64,000 nucleotides of DNA from Polyangiaceae bacterium (GTDB taxonomy: Bacteria > Myxococcota_A > Polyangia > Polyangiales > Polyangiaceae): positions 1 to 64,000 of the forward strand of contig JAJDAH010000238.1 of NCBI GenBank assembly GCA_029261965.1, given 5' to 3'. Positions 2,134 through 4,653 of this stretch are shown piece by piece. The notes below the pieces were generated by a model. It did no database searches, was not told where the DNA came from, and was given only the letters and a program-made list of their open reading frames with translations. Within the stretch, counting starts at the first letter, position 1; the number at the start of each line of letters is the position of its first letter. A program made the position numbers and the translations under genes.

Positions 2134-3834
2134 CTACTTTTCGTCGAGCACTCTGCGGACCGCACGAAGCAAATCGGCAGCCTCGTAAGGCTTCTGAAGG
2201 ATTGCCCGGGCCCCCGACAGCGAAGGCTCGTCGATGCGGCGTCCCGCGTCGCCCGAGGAGATCACGATTCGGGCAGCCTGGTCGACCCTCAAGATCTGAT
2301 TGCACAGCGACTCGCCCGAGCGCTTCGGCATGATCAGATCGACGATGCACAGATCCGGTCGGTGCTCGACGAACTGGGCCAGGCCGTGCTCGCCGTCCAC
2401 CGCGGTCACGACACGATAGCCTCGCATGGTGAGGATGCCCGCTGCGGTTTTTCGCACGAACTCGTCGTCGTCGATGACCAGGATGGTTTCGACGCCGCCG
2501 CGCAGGTCGTCCCAAGGTCGAACTTCCCGGGCGCCCTCGGGGTCAGGGCTCGACTCGGGCAGGTACACGTGCACCGTCGTGCCCTCTCCCTCCGCGCTCT
2601 CGAGCTCCACGTGCCCGCCATGGCCGTTGACGACGATGTTGTAGACCATCGCGAGGCCGAGCCCTTGACCGCGTTGCTCTGTGCGATCCCGAGTCGTGAA
2701 CAGCGGCTCGAACGCCCGGCGCTTCACGTCGGCGGACATGCCTTCGCCCGTGTCGGCAAATCGGAGGTGGACGTAGGCTCCGGCGGCGAGGTCCCGCACG
2801 TCGCCCGCTTGGACCGCGTGTCGTGCCGCCGACAGAGTAATTTGGTCGTCTGGTCGCGGTCCACCGGGTCGGCCGTCGATCGCCCTGGCGGCGTTGGTTG
2901 CGAGGTTCAACAGCACTTGATGCAGCTCGCTCGGTGCCGCGTGAACGACGAAGTTGTCCGGCCCAAAGTCGACGCGTTTCGTGATGAGCCGGTTCGTGGT
3001 CTGCTCGAGGAGAGAAAAAACCTCCGACGCGATGGAGTGGACGTCGGTGGCCTTCCTTTGGCTCACCGTGCCGGCCGACAGGGTCCCGAGCCGACGGGTC
3101 AACGCGGCAGCTCGATTGCAGGCGTCTAGGCAGTCCCGCACACAGGTAGCCTGCTGTTCCGACAAGGGGTCGGGCCCACAGTCCAGCAGTGACTGGCTCG
3201 CCACGATGCCTTGGAGAAGGTTGTTGAAGTCGTGAGCGATCCCGCCAGCAAGCGAGCCGATCGAGTCCATGCGTTGACGGAGACGCAACTGGTCCTCGAG
3301 CTCCCTGCGCCGCTCGACTTGCTCCTCGAGCACCTCGTTGGCGCGGGTGAGCTCCGCGGTTCGTTCTCGGACTCGGCTCTCGAGCTCGTCCTTTGCCCGC
3401 GCCAGATCGGTCTCTGCACGCTTGAGCGCCGTGATGTCGTTGACCGTCGTGCTCACGGCCACGATCTCGCCGCTCGAGGCTCGAACCGGATGGTGACTGA
3501 CGAGGTACGCGCGTTCGACGCCGGGATCCGATGGCACCTCCGTCGAGACCTCGACGTTCAAGACAGGCTGCCCCGTCGCGAGCACCTGCTGGTAGATCGG
3601 CTCGATGTGCGGCGCCACGTTCGGGATCACCTCGCGCAGCGTTCGCCCAAGGTGTTCCTCGATGGAGTTTCCGTTGATGGCCGCGAGGCGTTCGTTGATT
3701 CTGAGGTAGCGCAGATTGGTGTCCACGAGGCACATGCCTACGGGGGCGGTCGCATAAAGATGCTCGAGCTCGACCTGCTTCGAGTCGTCCCGTTGCCCTT
3801 CCGCCGCCCCCGAGCGCCCAACCGGCTTCACCAT
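2134..3834 (-). CDS. PAS-domain hybrid histidine kinase with C-terminal receiver
   Basis: 566 residues, cytoplasmic (no membrane segment). Order: a PAS domain (~20-135, followed by a coiled coil ~140-185); a DHp helix with the H box GGIAHDFNNLL; an HATPase domain with N box (NLATNA), G1 (DTGEGM), F box (FEPLFTTR) and G2 (GQGLGLAMVYNIV); and a receiver domain starting ETILVIDDDE with the phospho-acceptor Asp in CIVDLIMP and the conserved Lys in LQKPY. This is the classic PAS-HK-REC architecture, so signal input, autophosphorylation and intramolecular transfer are expected. No output domain and no partner response regulator lie nearby, so the downstream target is not visible. A large inverted repeat sits 90-184 bp upstream of the ATG. 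Confidence 0.92.
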   Translation of the reverse strand: MVKPVGRSGAAEGQRDDSKQVELEHLYATAPVGMCLVDTNLRYLRINERLAAINGNSIEEHLGRTLREVIPNVAPHIEPIYQQVLATGQPVLNVEVSTEVPSDPGVERAYLVSHHPVRASSGEIVAVSTTVNDITALKRAETDLARAKDELESRVRERTAELTRANEVLEEQVERRRELEDQLRLRQRMDSIGSLAGGIAHDFNNLLQGIVASQSLLDCGPDPLSEQQATCVRDCLDACNRAAALTRRLGTLSAGTVSQRKATDVHSIASEVFSLLEQTTNRLITKRVDFGPDNFVVHAAPSELHQVLLNLATNAARAIDGRPGGPRPDDQITLSAARHAVQAGDVRDLAAGAYVHLRFADTGEGMSADVKRRAFEPLFTTRDRTEQRGQGLGLAMVYNIVVNGHGGHVELESAEGEGTTVHVYLPESSPDPEGAREVRPWDDLRGGVETILVIDDDEFVRKTAAGILTMRGYRVVTAVDGEHGLAQFVEHRPDLCIVDLIMPKRSGESLCNQILRVDQAARIVISSGDAGRRIDEPSLSGARAILQKPYEAADLLRAVRRVLDEK

Positions 3835-3923
3835 CGAAAATCCACTGTCTGCAAAGTAGCCGGGGTTTGCAACCGTGCGCGCTGCGACCCACGCTCCCCG
3901 CTGGGCGAAGCCGCGTGGGAACT

Positions 3924-4017
3924 ATGCCCCTCGGAATGTTCGCAATCGCAACATTTCGACCGGGATACTCATCCATACCCCCCAGAATGTTGCGATCGCG
4001 AACATTTCCGGGGGCAT
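3924..4017. repeat. long imperfect inverted repeat (32-bp arms)
   Basis: Arms 3924-3955 and 3986-4017 match at 28 of 32 positions in inverted orientation with a 30-nt spacer. Each arm begins ATGCCCC at its outer end and contains AATGTT-N9-AACATT, itself a partial palindrome; the right arm is centred on GCGATCGC. The element occupies the 357-bp gap 3835-4191 upstream of the hybrid kinase; I see no ORF in the rest of that gap. There is no T tract, so a simple terminator is unlikely. It could be a paired operator, a cruciform or a small mobile or REP-like element. Confidence 0.85.
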
Positions 4018-4191
4018 GCTTTGGACCGGACTCGACGAGACGGGTATGAGCTCGGCGAACCGGAGGCGGCCGCCGCACGGGCATGGCGTGGGGCGTCTGC
4101 TCTTCTTCGCGCGGTGTTCAGTCGTTGCCCGTCCGCCCCTGCGCGCTAGGCCCGGGTGGCATTTCGGGGCGCATGCCTACCCATGCCGAGA

Positions 4192-4653
4192 TCAGCGTTT
4201 GAGGAACGCCGCTTTGATCTCGTCGGGTGGTGTGCCTTCTTCGCCCATTTGGAAGGCTCGTGTCGATTCGTCGTTCAGGTAGACGACGAGTCCGAACACC
4301 ATGAGGGCGAGTGCCGTGGGTAGACAGTAACAACTGAGAATCGTCAGCGCGCCGGACGAGAGCGCGACGATGCCGAGGGTGCGGCTGCGGAACTTCATGT
4401 TCTTGACGCCGGCGAATATCTTCAGCCCGCCGGCGACGAGCACCAGCACTCCGATGACGATGTAGACCGCGCTCAGAATGCCGAAGACCGCGTCGGGCGG
4501 TGGTCCGCCGCCGGCGGACGAGCTCGGGGGCGGGGCGAACTTCAGCAACGCGAACATCGCCGGGCCCATCGCGACATAGAGCACGCCCATCAGCGCTTCC
4601 ATGATGCCCTGAACGATGAGCAGGACGGCAATCACGGGGATGTTGGTGACCAA
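4192..4653 (-). CDS. small four-helix membrane protein, function unknown
   Basis: 153 residues. The start is a TTG at 4653, supported by GGAGG six bases upstream. Four hydrophobic stretches are visible (~4-30, 55-77, 88-112, 113-125) with a Pro/Ser/Gly loop after the first (PPPSSSAGGGPP). The C-terminal tail is cytosolic-looking and acidic. I do not recognise the family. It is divergent from the TMTC-like gene, with 38 bp between the starts, so the two may share a control region. Confidence 0.7.
   Translation of the reverse strand: MVTNIPVIAVLLIVQGIMEALMGVLYVAMGPAMFALLKFAPPPSSSAGGGPPPDAVFGILSAVYIVIGVLVLVAGGLKIFAGVKNMKFRSRTLGIVALSSGALTILSCYCLPTALALMVFGLVVYLNDESTRAFQMGEEGTPPDEIKAAFLKR

Follow-up and report, generated by a model that had tools for sequence, protein, structure and literature searches.

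A dispersed palindromic element with a REPIN-like build in front of a hybrid histidine kinase gene of a Polyangiaceae bacterium

An inverted repeat lies in front of a hybrid histidine kinase gene in a 64,000-nucleotide stretch of a Polyangiaceae genome, referred to here as the window, and it raises the question of whether the repeat belongs to the kinase or to a family of its own. An earlier note on this DNA had described two 32-bp arms matching at 28 positions, each with an AATGTT-N9-AACATT palindrome and with ATGCCCC at the outer ends, 90 bp from the kinase start, and had offered three readings: a double operator of the kinase, a cruciform, or a small mobile or REP-like repeat. The description proved to be accurate, including the 90-bp distance between the kinase start and the near arm. 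The arms occupy positions 3924-3955 and 3986-4017, are complementary at 28 of 32 nt (88%) and enclose 30 nt; the palindrome is free of mismatches in both arms, and the outer ends read ATGCCCC and GGGGCAT. A scan of the 64 kb (32-bp arms, at least 28 matches, spacer of 0-60) returned this pair as the single one, and no pair of equal quality was found in 20 windows simulated with a first-order Markov model. The flanks of both 21-bp modules are in direct order, with a CCCC side, the module and a CGACCGGG side occurring two times in succession; the arm pair can therefore also be described as quasi-palindromes in direct repeat at 51 bp. The inverted repeat is real and is one copy of a discrete element of ~103 bp, and the element as modelled reaches slightly beyond the ends first described (Table 1).

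Table 1. Features of the element copy in the window and of its surroundings
Feature	Position	Strand	Basis
Whole modelled element, ~103-bp core, TGTTCG subfamily	3919-4023	+	models R1, R2 and R3; edges from a 24-copy comparison
Left outer arm, pairs with 4015-4021	3920-3926	+	A3 columns 2-8
Right outer arm	4015-4021	+	A3 columns 98-104
Module h1, AATGTT-N9-AACATT	3935-3955	+	pattern matches, alignment
Module h2, reverse complement of h1 at 20 of 21 positions	3986-4006	+	pattern matches, alignment
Inner arms flanking the centre; weak pairing in the window copy (2 of 5 pairs) and good pairing in most copies	3964-3977	+	A3 columns 46-50 with 56-60
Fragment of a second dispersed repeat, module M1; 82-89% identity at eight further genome sites	4093-4161	+	sequence match
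Weak match to the element centre (9.6 bits, E 0.019 on 277 bases), possibly left over from another element	4165-4188	-	model match
Hybrid kinase, PAS + HATPase_c + Response_reg	2134-3834	-	domain search
153-aa protein, DUF4064 match below threshold	4192-4653	-	domain search

In the 9.59-Mb genome that contains the window (G000), the bare AATGTT-N9-AACATT pattern occurs at 11 exact sites and at six sites with one mismatch, and the reversed control pattern has none. Several of the exact sites are paired, 51 bp apart. A covariance model of six paired sites, R1, which holds local hairpins only and TGTTCG stems, found many further copies, and a second model, R2, built from 31 copies, identified 30 full-length copies and one partial copy on 23 of the 480 contigs. 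The search of the genome and its relatives that the earlier note had proposed thus led to a dispersed repeat family. With the exception of one overlap with a weak 80-aa call, the copies lie outside called genes. The 20 full copies with called genes on both sides are divided among co-directional (8), convergent (6) and divergent (6) neighbors, orientations that are rough because the gene caller misses ORFs (as on L052), and the remaining 10 of the 30 lie near contig ends. Among the best 25 of 80 families by membership, no Pfam family occurs in more than two of the 70 neighboring proteins. A comparison of 24 copies places the start and the stop of conservation sharply at AAnnATG and CATnnTT, and in the same copies no flanking direct repeat above background, as of a target-site duplication, was found outside the element.

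Most copies are solitary, with short series on contigs C313 and C463; on C313 the tandem copies of 116 bp are 98% identical. Copies also sit in mosaics with other repeats, and some have spread with larger duplicated blocks (C45, C437, C466), so that passive spread may account for some of the copies. It is noted that copies lie near bases 1-1300 of contigs C63, C277, C466, C187, C42, C45, C219 and C437. With many copies near contig ends, it is probable that the assembly breaks within composite repeats of greater length, and the count may fall short of the true copy number.

From the outside inward, the element consists of an outer arm, a C-rich or CGACC-type side, the 21-bp module (AAT-stem-loop-stem-ATT), another side and an inner arm (usually CATG), and then the same parts again. 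The start-to-start spacing of h1 and h2 is 51 in 29 of the 30 copies of G000 and 50 in one, 52 in 10 of 11 copies of a second genome (G023) and 51 in the other, and 51 in both aligned copies of G047, whose rows are off by one base in alignment A4 and were left out of the local-stem counts. In the 31-row alignment, a four-way structure pairs in 78.4% of the cells (shuffled, 67.9) and a long inverted repeat in 73.7% (shuffled, 64.0). The covariation of both structures exceeds that of all 500 shuffles, and slid versions score far lower. RNAalifold favors the long inverted repeat, in which the sides at columns 39-45 and 61-67 are unpaired (0.33 in G000). Folded as single-stranded DNA, all seven inputs, namely six elements with the window copy on both strands, were far better than shuffles (z from -4.7 to -11.0); a CCAAC copy is predicted to form a four-way junction and the window copy one long hairpin, and the alignment fits both. 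The loops are strongly complementary to each other overall (0 of 2000 shuffles) and modestly so once the CCAAC type is removed (39 of 2000). Since R1 held only local hairpins, the outer, inner and h1-h2 pairing was unselected in finding the G000 copies, and since R2 and the later model R3 contain this pairing, copies in further genomes are biased towards it. The potential of the element to form a hairpin or cruciform is supported by these calculations, and only in this computed sense does the cruciform of the earlier note find support.

The copies differ most in their stems. In A3, the 29 copies from G000 comprise CCAAC (10), TGTTCG (6, including the window copy) and GAGAG (5) types and an "other" type (8). 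When CCAAC is compared with TGTTCG, identity is 71.7% over the frame without the sides, a similarity that is partly ascertained, but 6.4% over the 20-base stem core, against 25.8% by chance; since R1 was built on TGTTCG stems, the other stems were found in spite of the bias of the model. Within CCAAC, identity is 99% in the stem core and 83% in the frame. Despite the stem differences, h1 and h2 of one copy remain reverse complements. The GAGAG type has local stems that pair poorly (0.48 and 0.64) and a cross pairing that is kept (0.76 and 0.88). For the "other" type, the cross pairing is just 0.65-0.68. The AAT...ATT ends, 8-bp stem and 5-base loop are found in CCAAC and in most TGTTCG copies, and not in all GAGAG copies. 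Different stems again occur in further genomes: CACAC and TTGC types in G023, GCTCAC in G047, GATCACAC in G272 and TTGGACG in G121. There are, then, many discrete intergenic copies with sharp edges and a fixed two-module layout, with stems that are wholly different between subfamilies yet complementary within each copy.

The element is also found in some relatives. R2 matched three of 108 genomes of the family, and the same three among 183 genomes of the order. The most sensitive model, R3, matched six of the 108 family genomes and none in 102, and eight of 317 genomes of the class (own genome included) in three families and seven genera, where the counts are lower bounds and the absences provisional since the wide searches score 12-36 candidates per genome. 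By genome, R3 gave 17 loci in G023, at least 7 in G272 (all 12 scored candidates matched), 6 in G047, 3 each in G119 and G121, and one weak match each in G074 and G255 that may be due to chance. As 102 of the 108 family genomes have no match, the element is not conserved before the kinase in that family. It should be mentioned that the elements of G119 (L211-L213) lie within short tandem arrays of the element unit and not as lone pairs, and that many G023 copies (L101, L104, L095, L220-L222) have a common CGCAACCCAA block ~20 bp before the element, which is another mosaic module.

A blastn search of phage and plasmid sequences returned no match to the element, and in viral contigs 20 loci carry a single palindrome with no twin (best 10 of 18); a phage or plasmid origin was rejected on these grounds. 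In other public genomes, a collection that may omit records of the own genome, the CCAAC palindrome was found at 55 loci (56 matches) with no convincing twin (best 13 of 18). On a Chthoniobacter contig (L131, ~3567-3720), a run of short palindromes split by GGGCA/GGCAT is apparently another palindromic array, unrelated to the twin-palindrome family.

We propose that the inverted repeat is probably a copy of a dispersed, non-coding, palindromic DNA element that is REPIN-like, non-autonomous and hairpin-forming, and that falls outside the two tagged REP superfamilies; its mobility and its enzyme are presumed. The element would spread as non-autonomous mobile DNA by way of a hairpin of single-stranded DNA or a cruciform extruded from it, which an enzyme encoded elsewhere may handle. 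The conserved frame (ATG-CCC outer arms, CGACC side and CATG inner arms) could be the part for cutting and joining, and the stem the part recognized by a given enzyme variant. It would thus work in the manner of a REPIN without the REPIN tag and without the known REPIN transposase, and any effect on the kinase would be incidental. A similar build with other stems in other genera supports this mobile reading; against it, no pair of filled and empty sites was seen, the usual Y1/RAYT enzyme is not linked to the element, a target-site duplication is lacking, and the mosaics and duplicated blocks would explain some copies as passive. Overall, the element is more likely small selfish DNA than a switch of the kinase.

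Where the mover of dispersed bacterial palindromes is known, it is a Y1 transposase, to which a short tag links them. REPINs are GTAG-tagged REP doublets moved by RAYT transposases (PMC3116915, PMC3733652). The element resembles REPINs in having two inverted palindromic modules at fixed spacing (71 bp in the REPIN GI type, 51/52 here), an intergenic location, compensatory changes and an inverted doublet predicted to be capable of a long hairpin; it differs in having ~30 copies rather than hundreds (PMC3116915, PMC3733652), and here the outer arms and C-rich sides are conserved and whole stems are swapped between subfamilies. GTAG was found within 8 bases beside the stem in 0 of 41 copies at each of the four sides. 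G000 has three Y1_Tnp matches, whose loci of ~3 kb contain no element, and G047 has no Y1_Tnp match in its genome, though it carries six elements. This is a multi-genome family of similar build without the tag, with one carrier genome in which no Y1 transposase is detectable.

Dimers of CGTC-tagged REPs are similar in having 8-9-bp stems that start with A/T pairs, 5-base loops and no association with a transposase (PMC3733652), and an 8-9-bp stem with an A/T start and a 4-5-base loop is found here in CCAAC and most TGTTCG copies. In one species such dimers are described inside a 41-bp palindrome, which is comparable to the outer arms here, and they are mostly head-head, in contrast to the direct order of the flanks in the G000 TGTTCG type (PMC3733652). 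CGTC stands beside the stem in 0, 4, 1 and 3 of 41 copies at the four sides, and TGTC or CCTC in 7, 4, 12 and 3; both are inconsistent everywhere. MITEs such as ERIC and RU (PMC2229807, PMC2759123, PMC10969869) are likewise short, dispersed, non-coding inverted repeats with sharp ends, and the present element differs from them in its lack of a target-site duplication and in the swapping of the stem between subfamilies. No report of such elements in myxobacteria was found in searches confined largely to open-access literature.

Several other explanations have to be weighed against the mobile element. The many dispersed copies, their unrelated neighbors and mixed orientations, and the lack of a match in 102 of 108 family genomes support the REP-like or mobile reading of the earlier note and not its double operator of the kinase; an operator of this kinase was rejected as the 30 full copies lie beside unrelated genes and not before the kinase alone. 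In a wider form of the operator idea, two palindromes about five helical turns apart would bind a regulator, the subfamilies would correspond to paralogous regulators and the copies to their regulons. The constant 51/52-bp spacing, the 21-bp dyads and a stem that is almost invariant inside each subfamily speak for it, yet we consider it unlikely in view of the unrelated neighbors, the convergent gene pairs among the orientations, a conservation that spans the whole ~103 bp, the 102 family genomes without a match and the failure to find a promoter-like site in 3700-4300. A terminator was also rejected, as the single terminator-like site in 3700-4300 lies away from the element and is no more than the count expected by chance. 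Rather improbable, in our judgement, is that the copies are passive palindromes, that is, old repeats between genes that were multiplied by duplication, that stay alike in their two arms because replication switches template from one arm to the other, and that have no dedicated mobility or function. Arm-to-arm correction alone would yield paired changes, and copies do occur in duplicated blocks and in tandem (the near-identical C313 repeats). However, within CCAAC conservation is highest in the stem (0.99, compared with 0.83 in the frame), it is again the stem that differs most from one subfamily to another, the sides at columns 39-45 and 61-67 have been left uncorrected, and the spacing is kept across genera.

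Covariation and strong folding could also point to a small RNA with a defined structure or to a control element within mRNA. Selection on a single RNA strand would favor G-U pairs, and G-U and A-C cells are about equally frequent in every helix of the oriented alignment (9/8, 14/15, 2/4 and 37/25; cross pairing 38/32), which suggests DNA rather than RNA, in a test that loses power if the copies are transcribed from either strand. There is no fixed orientation relative to genes and no Rfam family for the element, a tRNA and a tmRNA matched in the Rfam search being separate features, and the RNA reading appears very unlikely. Integron-like recombination sites (attC) are bounded by the end boxes RYYYAAC and GTTRRRY. 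The copies are imperfect palindromes of a suitable length, and some stand in short series (C313, C463); however, their ends, read by eye, are AAnnATG...CATnnTT without these boxes and most copies are solitary, so that an attC identity is improbable in the extreme. The genome has 22 tyrosine-recombinase matches.

Beyond the single copy, we tentatively raise the possibility, which we hold to be short of probable, that the family is a separate lineage of hairpin-borne mobile DNA in this class of bacteria, beside the GTAG and CGTC REP superfamilies. Its constant frame could be the cutting and joining site, and its exchangeable stem, present in all four half-positions of the most regular types, could be an address for co-evolving enzyme variants other than RAYTs. 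Such an address would explain why stems hardly vary inside a subfamily and bear no relation to those of other subfamilies and genomes, although the frame is retained together with the 51/52-bp register. A natural series of swapped stems in a fixed frame makes the recognized part of a palindromic repeat directly testable. For annotation, palindrome pairs of this kind should not be taken as operators of the next gene.

The surroundings of the copies have repeats of their own. A second non-coding dispersed repeat, M1, often followed by M2 with CCTCGAAGG/CCTTCGAGG ends, occurs together with CCAAC copies within mosaic blocks several hundred bases long. It was noted as the fragment in the window (Table 1) and at L051:180-600, L067:1033-1725, L064:5208-5384 and L061:38-239 and 1554-1769. 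A composite repeat block that includes a CCAAC copy is ~230 bp away from the tmRNA gene (L067:1952-2297, minus strand). Two perfect TTGTCAGCGCTGACAA palindromes in tandem (L017:5416-5460) adjoin the C463 element. A 15-bp minisatellite (GCACCGCCCGTCAGC, L016:8879-9071) follows directly after element C313c, and related GTCAGCGCC-type repeats adjoin C313a and C199. A stretch of 331 bp is shared at 79% identity between L016:6422-6752 and L053:3660-3989, both on contigs that carry elements.
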